10,744 nucleotides of DNA from the NCBI GenBank assembly GCA_030698575.1, contig JAUYMQ010000580.1, positions 1 to 10,744 on the forward strand, written 5' to 3'. A program made the translations under genes and the position numbers. Shown piece by piece: positions 1-10,744 of this stretch (positions are counted from its first letter, which is position 1; each line of letters begins with the position of its first letter). The notes beneath the pieces are model-generated. The model saw only the letters and a list, made by a program, of their open reading frames with translations, had not been told where the DNA came from and did not search any database. Source of the stretch: Deltaproteobacteria bacterium (GTDB lineage: Bacteria > JAUYMQ01).

Positions 1-622
1 GGCGGCCGATGCAGCCCGTGCGGCCGGTGCGCAGGTTGCTCTCGTCGTTCGCGCCGAGGTCATTCGCGCCCCTGCCGCGCCGCCGTCGGGGCTCGACAGC
101 ACCGATGCCTTGATCCGGGCTGAAGCCTATCGCTCGCCTGACGGTGCGCGCCTCGCGACGGCGACGACGCGCGTGACGGGCGCGGGGCGGAGCCCGGCGG
201 AGTCCGACGCAGAGGCCCTGGCCCACGGGGCGGAGCCGCTCGCCCGCGCGCTCGAGGGCCCGCTCCGCAGTGGCGTTGTGCGGCCCGTCCAGGAGCCGCG
301 CCCGATGCCGATCGTTCTCGAGGGGCGGCTCGACTGGCGCGGCTACCAGCAGGCCGTCGCGATCATTCGCGAAACGCTCCCCGAGATCGACGCGCTGGAA
401 GAGAGGCGGTTCGCAGCCGGCAGATTCACCCTGCAGGCTGTCTGCGGGTGCGAGCCGGAAGAGGCGGCGCGCCGCCTTGACGGGACGGCGCGAGGCGGCC
501 TTCGCCTGACTGCTTCGAGTGAAGGCGGCACGCTGCGCGTGCGCGCGGCGCCCTCTGCATCTCCGGACGCAGCCTCCGGGTCGGCGGCCCCGGGTGTCGC
601 GGGACGGGACACGCTGCCATGA
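1..622 (+). CDS. Unrecognised protein, 3' part of gene (5' end outside window)
   Basis: The frame is open from base 2 to the TGA at 620-622, giving about 206 residues with the real start outside the window. I do not recognise the product. The first ~90 residues are Ala-rich alpha/beta sequence with a repeated Ala/Arg helix pattern and short strands (for example VALVVRAEV). This pattern recalls FlgT/LPP20-type envelope domains, but only loosely. A second module, roughly residues 100-185, reads as strand, helix (RGYQQAVAIIRETLP), strand, short helix, strand and contains a CGC motif. The last ~24 residues are Ala/Ser/Pro/Gly-rich and probably disordered. The stop overlaps the pgsA start as ATGA, so the two genes are probably translationally coupled. 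A TTG at 110 is an internal codon, not a convincing start, because the frame stays open upstream. Coding status is well supported; function is unknown. Confidence 0.7.
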   Translation, partial: AADAARAAGAQVALVVRAEVIRAPAAPPSGLDSTDALIRAEAYRSPDGARLATATTRVTGAGRSPAESDAEALAHGAEPLARALEGPLRSGVVRPVQEPRPMPIVLEGRLDWRGYQQAVAIIRETLPEIDALEERRFAAGRFTLQAVCGCEPEEAARRLDGTARGGLRLTASSEGGTLRVRAAPSASPDAASGSAAPGVAGRDTLP

Positions 623-3474: not shown

Positions 3475-3990
3475 ATAGCAAAAGAAGTTCGAGTCAATCG
3501 AAAGATCCGCTCGCGCGAGGTTCGCGTAATCAATCACGACGGAACGCAGCTGGGAATCATGCAGATCGACGATGCTTTGGAGACCGCCGATCGCGAGAGC
3601 CTCGACCTCGTCGAGGTTTCGCCGAACGCTGCCCCGCCCGTTTGCCGGATCATGGACTACGGAAAGTACAAGTACGAGCAGAAGAAGAAGGCGAGCGATG
3701 CCCGGAAGAGCCAGCACGTCACCCATTTGAAAGAGGTGAAGTTCAGGCCCGGCACGAGCATGCACGACTTCGACTTCAAGCTCAACAACGTCAGGCGGTT
3801 TCTGAAGGAAGGGCACAAGGCCAAGATCACCATTACCTTCCGAGGGCGGCAGATCGCCTATCCGGATCTGGGCCGCAAGCTCCTCGGGCGCGTTGCCGAA
3901 GCCACGAAGGAGGAAGCCGTCGTCGAACAGTATCCGCGGTTCGAGGGGCGGAACATGACGATGATCCTGGCGCCGCCATCCCAGAACTAA
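3475..3990 (+). CDS. infC: Translation initiation factor IF-3, probable AUA start codon
   Basis: IF3 binds the 30S subunit, blocks premature 50S joining and rejects non-canonical start codons and elongator tRNAs. From ATA 3475 the product is 171 residues, normal for the family. The N-terminal domain begins (M)AKEVRVNRKIRSREVRVI, the expected IF3 start. The family signature runs at about residues 58-71 (RIMDYGKYKYEQKK), followed by a Lys-rich linker and the C-terminal domain (LKEVKFRPGT, then FRGRQIAYPDLG). The first in-frame ATG, at 3559, would remove 28 conserved residues, and an in-frame TAG at 3463-3465 excludes a start upstream. E. coli infC uses AUU, and its rarity underlies IF3 autoregulation; the same logic is inferred here for AUA. 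The gene lies 99 bases after thrS and 26 bases before rpmI. Confidence 0.95.
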   Translation: MAKEVRVNRKIRSREVRVINHDGTQLGIMQIDDALETADRESLDLVEVSPNAAPPVCRIMDYGKYKYEQKKKASDARKSQHVTHLKEVKFRPGTSMHDFDFKLNNVRRFLKEGHKAKITITFRGRQIAYPDLGRKLLGRVAEATKEEAVVEQYPRFEGRNMTMILAPPSQN

Positions 3991-4016
3991 CGTCTCAGCC
4001 CTGATAAGGAAAGCAC

Positions 4017-4214
4017 ATGCCGAAGATCAAGACGAACCGTGGGGCCGCGAAGCGTTTCAGGAAGAGCGCCAGCGGCAAGCTGAAGCGCAAGCGCGCTTTC
4101 CAGAGGCATATTCTCACTTCGAAGTCGTCCAAGCGGAAGCGGGCAATGCGCAGGCCCCAGTACGTGGCGGCTGCCGACGAGAGGAACATCAAGAAGCTGC
4201 TCCCGTATCTCTGA
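4017..4214 (+). CDS. rpmI: 50S ribosomal protein bL35
   Basis: This is a small, strongly basic large-subunit protein of 65 residues, the standard length. It starts with the family motif [14 protein letters not shown] and keeps the central basic segment with H31 ([15 protein letters not shown]). A TAAGGA Shine-Dalgarno (4005-4010) lies six bases before the ATG. It sits between infC and rplT, the near-universal arrangement. In E. coli this trio is under translational autoregulation by L20; that is established for E. coli and only assumed here. Confidence 0.97.
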
Positions 4215-4223
4215 GGGGGCCGC

Positions 4224-4242
4224 GCCGGGGCGACGCTCCGGC
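4224..4242 (+). repeat. Hairpin between rpmI and rplT
   Basis: GCCGGGG (4224-4230) pairs with CTCCGGC (4236-4242), seven base pairs including one G-T, around a five-base loop CGACG. It lies ten bases after the rpmI stop and seven bases before the rplT Shine-Dalgarno (AAGGGGAG, 4250-4257). No T-run follows. It could be a simple spacer structure or part of an L20-responsive leader; the sequence cannot decide. Confidence 0.35.
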
Positions 4243-4265
4243 CGCCAGGAAGGGGAGTCAGGACC

Positions 4266-4631
4266 ATGCCCAGGGTAAAACGCGGCACGAAAGCCCGTGC
4301 CCGAAGAAAAAAGGTGCTGAAGGAGGCGAAGGGTTACCGGGGAGCGCGTTCCCGGCTCTACCGGACCGCCACCGAGGCCGTGGACAAGGCGGGGGTCTAT
4401 GCCTACCGCGATCGGCGCGTGCGAAAGCGCAACTTCCGCGCGCTCTGGATCACGCGCATCGGCGCCGCGGCGAAACAGTGTGAGACCAACTACCGCGACC
4501 TGATCCACGGTCTGGCGCTCGCAAGCGTCCAGCTCGATCGCAAAGTCCTCGCAGACCTTGCCGTGAAGGATCCGGACACTTTCCGCGCGCTCGTAGAGGT
4601 CGCCATTCACGCGAATCGATCGGCGGCCTGA
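4266..4631 (+). CDS. rplT: 50S ribosomal protein bL20
   Basis: This early-assembly protein of the large subunit binds 23S rRNA. The 121 residues fit the usual ~118. The extended basic N-terminal arm is typical ([19 protein letters not shown], then [11 protein letters not shown]). The globular C-terminal domain follows, with [18 protein letters not shown] and a late helix at [12 protein letters not shown]. The ATG is preceded by AAGGGGAG (4250-4257). In E. coli, L20 represses its own operon; no matching pseudoknot was traced here. Only 27 bases separate its stop from pheS, leaving no room for a pheM-type leader peptide and attenuator. Confidence 0.97.
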
Positions 4632-4658
4632 GCCCATCCGCTCCGGCGGGACACGGTC

Positions 4659-5684
4659 ATGATCGAAGCGCTGAATGCCATTCGTGATGAGGCGCTCCGC
4701 CGTCTGGCGGAGCTGGGCGCCGATGCGCCCGAAGCCGAGATCAGGGACCTGCGCGCCCGCTACCTGGGGCGGGAAGGCTCCCTTTCGGTCGCAATGCGGG
4801 GGATGGGCAAACTGCCGGCCTCCGAGCGCCCTGAGATCGGCCGCCTTGCGAACGAGGTAAAGGGCGCCATCGAGGAGGCGTTTGAGACGGCCCAGGGCGC
4901 GCTCGCTGCGCGTGAGCGGGCCCAAAGCCTGGCAAGCGAGCGGGTGGACGTCACGCTGCCCGGACGCACGCCGGCTATCGGCCGCGTCCATCCCCTTACG
5001 CAGACAGCCGAGCGGGCCACCGAGATCTTCGTGGGCCTCGGATTCTCGGTGGCCGAGGGCCCCGACGTCGAAACCGACTACAACAACTTCGAGGCCCTCA
5101 ACATTCCCCGGGATCACCCGGCTCGTGAACTGCAGGACACCTTCTACGTCGCCGACGACATCGTCCTGCGCACCCACACCTCGCCCGTCCAGATCCGGAC
5201 CATGAAGCAGCGGAAACCTCCTCTGCGTGTCATCGCCCCCGGGACCGTCTACCGGCGCGACGACGACGTGACCCACAGCCCCATGTTTCTCCAGATCGAG
5301 GGGTTCATGGTCGACGAGAAAGTCACTTTCGGCGATCTGAAAGGCGTTCTCACGGCCTTTCTCCAGGAGATGTTCGACAAAGGCACGCGGCTTCGCTTCC
5401 GCCCCAGCTACTTCCCCTTCGTGGAGCCCGGCGCGGAGGTCGACATCGAGTGCTTCCTTTGCAGGGCGAAGGGCTGCCGGGTGTGCAAGGGGACGGCCTG
5501 GATCGAGATCCTGGGGGCGGGGATGATTCATCCGGAGGTCTTCCGCGCGGTGGGCTATGACCCCGCGGCCTGCTCGGGCTTCGCCTTCGGGATGGGAATC
5601 GAACGGATCGCCATGCTCCGCTACGGTGTGAATGACATCCGCCATTTTTACGAGAACGACCAGAATTTCCTGGAGCAGTTCTAG
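4659..5684 (+). CDS. pheS: Phenylalanine--tRNA ligase alpha subunit
   Basis: PheS is the catalytic subunit of the cytoplasmic alpha2beta2 class II synthetase that charges tRNA-Phe. The 341 residues match the family. An N-terminal coiled-coil arm (~1-95) that contacts tRNA is followed by the catalytic domain starting at HPLTQT (111-116). Motif 2 is at about 195-218 (PGTVYRRDDDVTHSPMF, then QIEGFMVD) and motif 3 at about 307-319 (GFAFGMGIERIAM). F308-A309 matches the residue pair governing phenylalanine specificity. A four-cysteine cluster, C265, C268, C273 and C276, is common in bacterial PheS outside the E. coli type and could hold zinc. The Shine-Dalgarno is weak (GGCGGGA before the ATG), suggesting coupling to rplT. 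The pheT ATG begins two bases after the TAG. Confidence 0.97.
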   Translation: MIEALNAIRDEALRRLAELGADAPEAEIRDLRARYLGREGSLSVAMRGMGKLPASERPEIGRLANEVKGAIEEAFETAQGALAARERAQSLASERVDVTLPGRTPAIGRVHPLTQTAERATEIFVGLGFSVAEGPDVETDYNNFEALNIPRDHPARELQDTFYVADDIVLRTHTSPVQIRTMKQRKPPLRVIAPGTVYRRDDDVTHSPMFLQIEGFMVDEKVTFGDLKGVLTAFLQEMFDKGTRLRFRPSYFPFVEPGAEVDIECFLCRAKGCRVCKGTAWIEILGAGMIHPEVFRAVGYDPAACSGFAFGMGIERIAMLRYGVNDIRHFYENDQNFLEQF

Positions 5685-5686
5685 CC

Positions 5687-8104
5687 ATGCGTGTGAGCCT
5701 CGAATGGCTGCGGGAGTACGTTCCGATCAACCAGCCGACGCCGGCGCTGGCCGAAGCCCTGATCAACGCGGGCCTCGAAGTGGGAGCGATCGAGGATCTG
5801 GGCGCGGGCATGGAAAGTGTCGTGGTGGCCGAGCTGCTGTCGGTCGCCCCCCATCCCAGCGCCGATCGCCTTTCGCTCTGCGAGGTGCAGGCCGGCGGCG
5901 AGACACGCCGGGTGGTGTGCGGTGCGAGGAACATGAAGGCAGGCGATCGCGTGGCGCTTGCCGTGCCGGGTGCGCGGCTTCCCAATGGATTGGAGATCCG
6001 CAAGAGCAAGATCCGGGGCGAGACATCCGAGGGAATGCTGTGCTCGGAGCAGGAGCTGAAGCTCGCCGAGAAATCGGCCGGCATTCTGATCCTCCCGCCC
6101 GATGCGCCGGTGGGATCGCCGCTGGCCGGCTACCTCGGCCGCGACGACGTGATCTTCGATATCGAGCTGACACCCAACCGCGCCGACTGCCTCTCGCATC
6201 TGGGTGTGGCCCGCGAGGTCGCGGCGCTCACGGGCGCTGCGCTGACCGTGCAGGATCGGACCGTGCCCGAGGCGGGAGAAGCCGTCGGCGCGATGACATC
6301 CGTCACCATCGAGGACGCCGGGCGCTGTCCCCGCTACGCGGCGCGAGTGATTCGCGGGGTGAAGGTGGGCCCCTCTCCCCGGTGGCTCGCCTCGCGTCTG
6401 GAGAAGGTGGGCGTCAGGCCGATCAACAACGTGGTCGATGTCACGAACTACGTCCTCTTCGAGCTGGGCCAGCCTCTCCATGCCTTCGATCTCGCCGCGC
6501 TCGCGGAAGGGCGTATCGTCGTGCGGTGCGCGCGGGAAGGTGAAAGCCTTGTAACCCTCGACGGTGTCGAGCGGAAGCTCACGGCGGACGATCTGGTCAT
6601 CGCAGACGCAAACCGACCCGTGGCGCTGGCCGGGGTCATGGGGGGCGAGGCGACCGAGGTGACGGCCGGAACGGCCGACATTCTCCTCGAGAGCGCCTAT
6701 TTCGCCCCCCTGGGCATTCGCCGGACCGCCAAGAGGCAGGGCCTCAAGAGCGAGGCCTCTCATCGCTTCGAGCGGGGGTGTGACCCGGAGATGGTCGTCC
6801 GTGCTTCGGATCGGGCCGCGGGCCTGCTTGCAGAACTGGCCGCGGGACAGGTAGCATCCGGCGTCCTGGACGTTTATCCATCGCCGGTCCGGCGCCCGGA
6901 GATCCGCCTCCGGCCCGAACGCGCGAACGCGCTTCTGGGGATCGATCTCCCCGGCGACGCGATGGCCGAAATCCTCCGCCGCCTCGGCATAGCGGTGGAG
7001 ATACAGGGCGCCGAGATAGTCGCCCGGGTGCCCTCGTGGCGCCCCGATCTCGCGATCGAGGCGGACCTTGTCGAGGAGATAGCGCGCCTTCACGGCTACG
7101 ATCGCATACCGACGACGCTCCCCAGGGCGCCGATCCAGAGCCCCGAGGCGCCGCCGGAGCGGCGTCTCGAGCAGACCGCGCGGGAGCTTTTCACGGGGTT
7201 CGGTTTTCACGAGGCAATTACCTACCGCTTCGTTTCGCCCGGCTGGGCCGATCGGCTGGGGCTCACGGTCGATGATCCGCGGCGGCGCAATGTCCGGTTG
7301 CGCAATCCGATGCGTGAAGATCAAGCGGCCATGCGCACTTCGCTCATCCCGGGGCTTCTGACTGCCGCGCTCGCGAATCTCCGGCGCGACCAGACGGACG
7401 TCCGGCTCTTCGAGGCGGGGAAGGTTTTCTTCGACAGCGGCGAGGGAAACCTCCCGGAGGAGCGCGTGGCGCTGGGCGCGGTGCTTGCCGGCGAGGGAAG
7501 GCCGGGGTTCTGGGGAAAGGGGAGGGCGGCGGACTTCTACGACGCCAAGGGGCCCGTGGAGGCCCTTCTCGACCGCCTGGCGATCCGGGGGGCGCGCTTC
7601 CAGACCGAGGGGCTCTCTCCCTATCTGCACCCGGGCCTGTCGGCCAGCCTCCGCTGGGAGAAGGAGCGTCTGGGGGAACTCGGGATGCTACACCCCGAAG
7701 TGGCCGCCGCCCTGGAGTTGCCAGACACCCTGTTTTTGGTGGATCTTGATGCCCCGGCCCTGTTGCGGGCCGCCGCGGCGGGATTTCCGGCTTTCATTCC
7801 CCCGCCGCGCTTCCCGGCCGCGCGCCGCGATCTGGCGGTGGTGGTCGACGAGAGCATCGAGTCCGGTGAGTTGCTGGAACAAATTGGGTTGATTTCCGAG
7901 AAGGAATTTCGGGAGGCCCTCCGGCAGATCGAAGTCTTTGACGTTTACCGCGGCGAGGGAATTCCCGCGGGAAAGAAGAGCGTCGCCCTGCGACTTTCCT
8001 ATCGATCTGACGAGCGAACATTGACCGATGCGGAGGTAAACGTTTTTCAGGAGCGGGTACTCACCCGACTTGCAAAGGAGCTGGGCGCTGCGCTACGTAC
8101 CTGA
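5687..8104 (+). CDS. pheT: Phenylalanine--tRNA ligase beta subunit
   Basis: PheT is the tRNA-binding and editing subunit partnering PheS. The 805 residues are full length (E. coli ~795). Visible domains are the OB-fold tRNA-binding domain (~39-148), the B3/B4 editing domain (~210-380) with H265 (GQPLHAFD) and E335 (LLESAYF) at the E. coli-like positions, and the B5 domain (~402-475) with the D/E motif WRPDLAIEADLVEEIARLHGY. A catalytic-like core (~490-690) and a C-terminal FDX-ACB anticodon-binding domain (~708-805) complete it. Editing of Tyr-tRNA-Phe is therefore expected to be intact. GGAG at 5672-5675 inside pheS is the likely Shine-Dalgarno. ihfA starts 63 bases downstream. Confidence 0.97.
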   Translation: MRVSLEWLREYVPINQPTPALAEALINAGLEVGAIEDLGAGMESVVVAELLSVAPHPSADRLSLCEVQAGGETRRVVCGARNMKAGDRVALAVPGARLPNGLEIRKSKIRGETSEGMLCSEQELKLAEKSAGILILPPDAPVGSPLAGYLGRDDVIFDIELTPNRADCLSHLGVAREVAALTGAALTVQDRTVPEAGEAVGAMTSVTIEDAGRCPRYAARVIRGVKVGPSPRWLASRLEKVGVRPINNVVDVTNYVLFELGQPLHAFDLAALAEGRIVVRCAREGESLVTLDGVERKLTADDLVIADANRPVALAGVMGGEATEVTAGTADILLESAYFAPLGIRRTAKRQGLKSEASHRFERGCDPEMVVRASDRAAGLLAELAAGQVASGVLDVYPSPVRRPEIRLRPERANALLGIDLPGDAMAEILRRLGIAVEIQGAEIVARVPSWRPDLAIEADLVEEIARLHGYDRIPTTLPRAPIQSPEAPPERRLEQTARELFTGFGFHEAITYRFVSPGWADRLGLTVDDPRRRNVRLRNPMREDQAAMRTSLIPGLLTAALANLRRDQTDVRLFEAGKVFFDSGEGNLPEERVALGAVLAGEGRPGFWGKGRAADFYDAKGPVEALLDRLAIRGARFQTEGLSPYLHPGLSASLRWEKERLGELGMLHPEVAAALELPDTLFLVDLDAPALLRAAAAGFPAFIPPPRFPAARRDLAVVVDESIESGELLEQIGLISEKEFREALRQIEVFDVYRGEGIPAGKKSVALRLSYRSDERTLTDAEVNVFQERVLTRLAKELGAALRT

Positions 8105-8888: not shown

Positions 8889-9296
8889 ATGCGAGAGAGG
8901 AGGGCTGGAGTCTTGGCGAGAAGGATCCTGGCAGTCGCCCTGATCAGCCTCGGGGCGTTCGTCCTCGGCTGTCAGGAGGGCGAGAAAAAGGCGCCGGCGC
9001 AGGTCTACGAGCCGCCGAAGCTACGGAGCGAGGCGGAGCGTGGCACCCAGCAGGTAAAAAAGGTGCGGACGGATGTGCGCATCACGCTGCGCATGACCAA
9101 GGAGCAGGTCGAGGAAGTGCAGGGCAAGCCGGAACGGGTCGACGTTATCTCGTACCCCGGCACCCGGGAGGTCGTCGAGGACTGGCGATATCCGACGATC
9201 GAGAACGGCTGCCGCAAGGTGCTGTTCACTGACGGCCGTGTGACCCTTCTCCGCGAATGCGTGGGCCAGGCGAACACCAACCCCGCGAGCACCTGA
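8889..9296 (+). CDS. BamE/SmpA-like lipoprotein
   Basis: From ATG 8889 the product is 135 residues with a lipoprotein signal peptide ending at VLG|C28. Residue +2 is Gln, not Asp, so sorting to the outer membrane is likely if Lol rules hold. After a Lys/Pro/Glu-rich linker (~29-60), a compact domain at ~62-122 follows the BamE/SmpA pattern: MTKEQVEEVQGKPERV, then EDWRYP, then KVLFTDGRV. C108 and C124 flank the last strands and could form a disulfide. The start is uncertain: TTG 8913 has a much better Shine-Dalgarno (AGGAGGG, 8898-8904, eight bases away) and gives a textbook 20-residue signal peptide beginning MARRILAVA. BamE belongs to the outer-membrane beta-barrel assembly complex, but this short family also includes proteins of unknown role, so no gene symbol is given. 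Confidence 0.82.
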   Translation: MRERRAGVLARRILAVALISLGAFVLGCQEGEKKAPAQVYEPPKLRSEAERGTQQVKKVRTDVRITLRMTKEQVEEVQGKPERVDVISYPGTREVVEDWRYPTIENGCRKVLFTDGRVTLLRECVGQANTNPAST

Positions 9297-9565: not shown

Positions 9566-10210
9566 ATGTCCTTCGAGAAGCAACGCCTGCGGATGGTCGA
9601 AAGCCAGATCGTCGCCCGCGGCATCAAGGATCCGCGCGTCATCGATGCGATGAAGCGCGTCCCCCGGCACCTCTTCACCGACGAGGCGCTCCGCACTCGC
9701 GCATACGACGACTCCCCCCTGCCGATCGGCGAGAAGCAGACCATCTCGCAGCCTTACATGGTCGCGGTGATGAGCGAAGCTCTGGAACTCACGGGCACCG
9801 AGGCAGTGCTCGAGGTAGGCACCGGCTCGGCGTACCAGACCGCGGTCCTGTCCTGTCTCGCGCGGCAGGTGTTCTCGATCGAGCGTCTCGGAATTTTCGT
9901 CGATCGGGCCCGCAAGATCCTCGAGTCGCTCGATATCAAGAACGTGACGCTCAAGACCGGCGACGGCTCGCGCGGGTGGCGCACCAAGGCTCCCTTTGAC
10001 GCCATCCTCGTGACTGCCGGATCACCCAGGGTCCCTCAGCCGCTGGTAGAACAGCTGGTGCCCGGCGGACGCCTGGTCATTCCGGTGGGCGACCGTGCCA
10101 ATCAAGCCCTCCTTCGGCTCCGCAAGTCCGCCGATGGCGGGACGACGACGGAGGAACTGGTCGGCTGCCGCTTCGTCGATCTCCAGGGCGCCTTCGGCTG
10201 GCCCGACTGA
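9566..10210 (+). CDS. pcm: Protein-L-isoaspartate O-methyltransferase
   Basis: This cytoplasmic SAM-dependent enzyme methylates L-isoaspartyl residues in aged proteins, starting their repair. From ATG 9566 it has 214 residues, the usual length. Recognisable motifs are the N-terminal RVPRHLF and Y47-D48-D49, then TISQPYMVA (59-67), SAM-binding motif I VLEVGTGSAY (81-90), GDGSRGW (132-138), a LVTAGSPRVP strand (148-157) and the end RFVDLQGAFGW (202-212). Motif I has Ala where most Pcm proteins have Gly (GTGSGY). The reading frame stays open back into tRNA-Pro, but that part is not protein-like. GTG 9545 is an alternative start. The Shine-Dalgarno is weak (GGGG at 9558-9561). In many proteobacteria surE precedes pcm and nlpD follows; here surE is absent and an NlpD-like gene follows. 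Confidence 0.95.
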   Translation: MSFEKQRLRMVESQIVARGIKDPRVIDAMKRVPRHLFTDEALRTRAYDDSPLPIGEKQTISQPYMVAVMSEALELTGTEAVLEVGTGSAYQTAVLSCLARQVFSIERLGIFVDRARKILESLDIKNVTLKTGDGSRGWRTKAPFDAILVTAGSPRVPQPLVEQLVPGGRLVIPVGDRANQALLRLRKSADGGTTTEELVGCRFVDLQGAFGWPD

Positions 10211-10335: not shown

Positions 10336-10668
10336 ATGACCACCCACGAAGATGTCAGAGGTACGCTCGTCCCGGCTCGTGAACAGGCCACGAAGACGCA
10401 GGAAGTGCTGAGGGGCGCAGTCACGCTCTGCGTCGCGCTTCTGTTTCTCTTTCAGGGGTGTGCTCGCGACGGGCTCACGACTTCCCGGATGGTGAGACTC
10501 GAGCCGAACCAATCGCTGTGGCAGGTGGCGAAGTCGAACGGTGTCTCGCTTGACGATCTGATGCGGGCCAACCCGGGCATCGATCCATCCCGGTTGGGTC
10601 CCGGAAGCACACTGCGTGTTCCGGCGCGGAGTGGCGGATCGCCTGGGGGAGGAATCTTTCAATCATGA
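10336..10668 (+). CDS. LysM-domain lipoprotein, NlpD-like N-terminal part
   Basis: From ATG 10336 the product is 110 residues. A hydrophobic stretch (LCVALLFLFQGC, 31-42) ends in a lipobox with C42 as the lipidation site. The N-region before it is unusually long, so a later start such as GTG at codon 24 is possible. A complete LysM peptidoglycan-binding module follows at ~53-97 (VRLEPNQSLWQVAKSNGVSL, then GIDPSRLGPGSTLRVP). A Gly/Ser-rich tail ends at TGA 10666-10668. NlpD-type proteins continue from LysM into an M23 peptidase domain. Here the same frame beyond the TGA does look like the start of such a domain, so this may be the 5' part of an interrupted nlpD-like gene. Position after pcm supports that identity. 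No clear Shine-Dalgarno is visible. Confidence 0.75.
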   Translation: MTTHEDVRGTLVPAREQATKTQEVLRGAVTLCVALLFLFQGCARDGLTTSRMVRLEPNQSLWQVAKSNGVSLDDLMRANPGIDPSRLGPGSTLRVPARSGGSPGGGIFQS

Positions 10669-10744
10669 TTTGGCCGCCGCGACACCGACGCATTCATGTG
10701 GCCGGTTCCGGGCGCGGCTATCAACTCTTATTTCGGTTCTCCTC
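10669..10744 (+). CDS. Start of M23-peptidase-like domain, partial and cut by window end
   Basis: In the same frame as the LysM gene, right after its TGA, the sequence reads FGRRDTDAF and then MWPVPGAAINSYFGSP to the window end. The pattern WPV-x-G-x(3)-S-x-FG is the usual entry to M23 (LytM/NlpD-type) metallopeptidase domains. The only in-frame start codon is ATG 10696, which lies inside the motif and would leave the domain without an export signal. It is therefore probably the continuation of the LysM lipoprotein across a nonsense codon, or a sequence error. A competing frame starts at ATG 10665, overlapping the TGA as ATGA, but has no recognisable motif. Catalytic residues lie beyond the window. 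Confidence 0.5.

Follow-up and report, generated by a model that had tools for sequence, protein, structure and literature searches.

The window analysed here, i.e. the whole stretch of DNA of 10,744 bases, is one complete contig (C76), and position 10744 is the contig edge rather than an arbitrary end of the window. The assembly to which it belongs totals 4.13 Mb, comprises 653 contigs (91.6% complete, 4.6% contaminated) and is apparently a metagenome bin. The contig carries, in this order, an ORF without an assigned name, pgsA, tRNA-Val, thrS, infC, rplT, pheS, pheT and an IHF/HU-type gene, followed by a MerR-type regulator, a small lipoprotein-like ORF, tRNA-Pro, pcm and a LysM gene. The gene names were given by applying family knowledge to the translations; those of the MerR-type regulator, pcm, both tRNAs and the LysM gene come from searches made in this study. 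Apart from the LysM gene, the genes of the window are intact, and thus errors are not frequent in the assembly as a whole. A 206-aa ORF upstream of pgsA (positions 2-622, plus strand) runs off the left contig end and has no Pfam match. A 135-aa ORF between the MerR-type regulator and tRNA-Pro (8889-9296, plus strand) has a lipoprotein-like start (VLGCQEG) and no Pfam family match. Two long antisense ORFs on the minus strand, at 3987-5645 (552 aa, opposite rplT-pheS) and at 5681-7630 (649 aa, opposite pheT), are most likely shadow ORFs of G+C-rich genes. The Pcm protein is at most 60% identical to the Pcm of MAGs labelled Deltaproteobacteria, Nitrospinota, Geobacteraceae and NC10, and a domain-wide DNA search with the contig gave matches in pcm only, the best at ~68%.

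The right end of the contig has the following features.

9566 to 10210, plus strand: pcm, encoding an intact protein-L-isoaspartate O-methyltransferase of 214 aa (Pfam PCMT, 212 bits).
10336 to 10668, plus strand: N-terminal part of a very probable NlpD-type protein, with a signal-peptide-like stretch, a possible lipobox, LysM, the start of the linker and an in-frame TGA (translation, Pfam).
10504 to 10623, plus strand: LysM domain, residues 57-96 (Pfam PF01476, 36.1 bits with a cut-off of 20.9).
10618 to 10690, plus strand: segment in which frame 2, uninterrupted at the TGA, has better codon scores than frame 1 (-7.7, 4.0 and -4.4 bits for frames 1, 2 and 3).
10666 to 10668, plus strand: in-frame TGA in the LysM-M23 linker (translation).
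10693 to 10743, plus strand: M23/LytM domain entry FMWPVPGAAINSYFGSP, in frame with LysM; the contig stops short of the metal ligands (translation, profile score).

Translation from the ATG at 10336, the start of the LysM gene, confirms the preliminary description of this DNA in that the frame closes at the TGA at 10666-10668, 76 bases before the contig end. The N-terminus of the predicted protein has a hydrophobic stretch and then LFQG followed by C, where F at -3 and Q at -2 are not classical lipobox residues. TGA is an ordinary stop in this genome, ending six of the ten genes in the window. Past the TGA the LysM frame reads FGRRDTDAFMWPVPGAAINSYFGSP up to the contig end, which falls two residues past the FG of the M23 entry. 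We scored the three frames with an M23-entry profile built from 33 homologues, and the LysM frame reached 9.2 bits while the other two gave -2.5 and -5.4. None of 3,000 shuffles reached this score, nor did more than 13 of the 40,655 stop-free 25-residue peptides taken from the six frames of the same genome, and the best four of these 13, each above 20 bits, may be true M23 entries. The M23-type entry motif that had been noticed earlier in the LysM frame past the stop thus scores well beyond what chance would give. Pfam shows no M23 match in the 25 residues after the TGA, since these stop short of the first metal ligand.

We collected LysM-M23 homologues through a scan of Pcm relatives together with profile and protein searches, covering ~550 genomes. 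All 33 homologues found elsewhere are encoded in one uninterrupted frame, which is open at the site of the stop in every one of them. The distance from LysM to M23 is 14-79 residues among the homologues, and the ~22 residues in our contig fall inside this range. BLAST alignments of the contig's protein to L140, L142, L144, L181 and others continue past the site of the stop. Of the 33 homologues, 22 have pcm in the same locus, and the other 11 loci are short or have a different context; the earlier view of an NlpD-type gene after pcm agrees with this, as the homologues found after pcm carry LysM and M23 in a single chain. The homologue set is biased by the way it was collected, as a split gene is harder to recover, but the search for LysM-only and M23-only ORFs took in every one of these loci, and no neighbouring pair of such ORFs was found there. 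Since the homologues are uninterrupted, no split pair was found and the spacing is within range, homology indicates one interrupted gene, not two genes or recoding. We conclude that a single NlpD-type gene is very probably present here, its frame broken within the linker in the consensus and its remainder cut off at the contig edge.

The codon usage from 10336 to 10618 is that of frame 1 (28.3 bits vs -36.2 and -42.7 for the other two), while over 10618-10690 frame 2 is the best. A margin like the latter occurs in ~1-2% of windows from ordinary genes of this genome, to be read with the facts that the site was picked for its stop and that linkers are compositionally odd. This is a weak sign that the linker acquired paired indels and not a single nonsense change. 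As a sub-case of the single-gene reading, we consider it possible, though with well under an even chance, that two paired frame shifts (frame 1 to 2 and back to 1) occurred and that the original linker was in frame 2 at ~10618-10690; two indels within ~70 bases are, however, a priori less likely than one base change. The option of paired frame shifts was absent from the preliminary description.

An error in the sequence or the assembly within the last 80-130 bases of the contig would be the most likely cause of the interruption, at slightly better than even chances, and a genuine lesion, nonsense or indel, in the population that was sampled would have somewhat under an even chance. As a pointer to error, the location near a contig end is no more than suggestive. 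Frame breaks show no excess at the sampled contig ends of this assembly (4 of 77 ends vs 16 of 333 inner places), and hence the idea of a contig-end error has no statistical support beyond the position itself. A literature search for errors that assemblies carry near contig ends yielded nothing pertinent. An error or a simple local mutation explains the stop better than new biology does.

No continuation of the M23 domain was found in the contig's own assembly when the M23 family and the last 95 bases were searched against the genome. Two other M23 genes of the assembly were considered as the continuation and rejected for their differing contexts, one lying between a recN-like gene and secA and the other being an EnvC-like gene before a ctp-like protease gene. 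This EnvC-like gene (L003) is intact. The shortest of 120 sampled contigs is ~2.5 kb, and therefore a shorter contig with the continuation may have been dropped. A search of the genome with the rpoS family for the downstream neighbour gave only sigma factors below the cut-off, which could not be linked to our contig. A Desulfuromonas contig (L047) likewise ends within an nlpD-type gene, shortly past LysM.

An intact product of this gene would be an exported and probably lipidated NlpD-type protein made up of LysM, a linker and an M23/LytM domain, with its gene after pcm. Judging from the family, it would bind peptidoglycan through LysM, and its LytM domain might either activate a cell-wall amidase during division, as the degenerate LytM of E. 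coli NlpD does, or cut peptidoglycan itself. Both metal-site motifs, HxxxD and HxH, are present in nine of the 33 homologues, the others being degenerate at one or both. We think it unlikely that the lineage lost the LytM domain of its NlpD by a fixed interruption, keeping a LysM lipoprotein and leaving amidase activation to the EnvC-like protein.

The remaining explanations take the stop as a genuine end of the LysM protein or as a codon that is read through. The preliminary description had offered a natural split, with a short gene for the LysM lipoprotein and a second gene for M23 downstream of it. In its favour one could cite an ATG that overlaps the TGA (ATGA, 10665-10668) and is preceded by a G-rich stretch at a distance of 12 bases, and another ATG at 10696 in the M23 frame. 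We consider the split very unlikely. Translation from the ATG at 10665 would be in frame 3, and the peptide it gives does not resemble M23 (-5.4 bits). The ATG at 10696 lacks a purine-rich, ribosome-binding site, and a signal peptide would not fit after it, as the domain starts at the second residue; the lack of split pairs in the homologue loci searched also speaks against a split. It is still a little less probable that the M23 likeness is accidental and that the LysM protein has its true end at 10668: just 17 residues of the domain are visible and Pfam does not recognize them, but the profile score is rarely or never reached by the control peptides, and the frame, the distance and the gene neighbourhood are all right. 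UGA readthrough or recoding linking the two halves, ranked last in the preliminary description, is hardly credible here, since in spite of an open frame and homology on both sides the genome uses TGA as a normal stop, the homologues have no stop at the site, and the linker is not conserved and so shows no selected recoding signal.

We therefore suggest annotating the single interrupted gene as an nlpD homologue truncated by the contig end, and not as a short LysM lipoprotein or a case of UGA recoding. The locus has little significance past its annotation. If the lesion is real and fixed, it would represent one case of amidase-activator loss in a poorly sampled phylum.

In E. coli, nlpD adjoins pcm. 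Our gene has in common with E. coli NlpD a putative exported, lipoprotein-like N-terminus, LysM, the linker, the entry of an M23/LytM domain after it and the pcm neighbour. It differs from it in that the frame is interrupted in the linker and LytM is cut by the contig end before any degeneracy could be visible. The E. coli protein is an outer-membrane lipoprotein and an amidase activator (PMC5533458).

A second comparison is with the LysM-M23 lipoproteins of Desulfuromonadales/Geobacterales (for example L032, L034 and L046), whose genes have pcm on one side and a gene for an rpoS-like sigma factor on the other. In the Geobacterales-like L032 and L034, pcm comes first, then a DedA-like gene, the gene for the LysM-M23 lipoprotein and finally that for the rpoS-like sigma factor. 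These proteins share with ours the domain order, the upstream pcm and an entry motif of the type F[IV]WP..G....FG, but each of them is one intact chain, and their linkers span 57-79 residues. In L032, L034 and L046 a DedA-like gene separates pcm from nlpD, whereas in our contig pcm is directly upstream of the LysM gene, the downstream side lying beyond the contig end.
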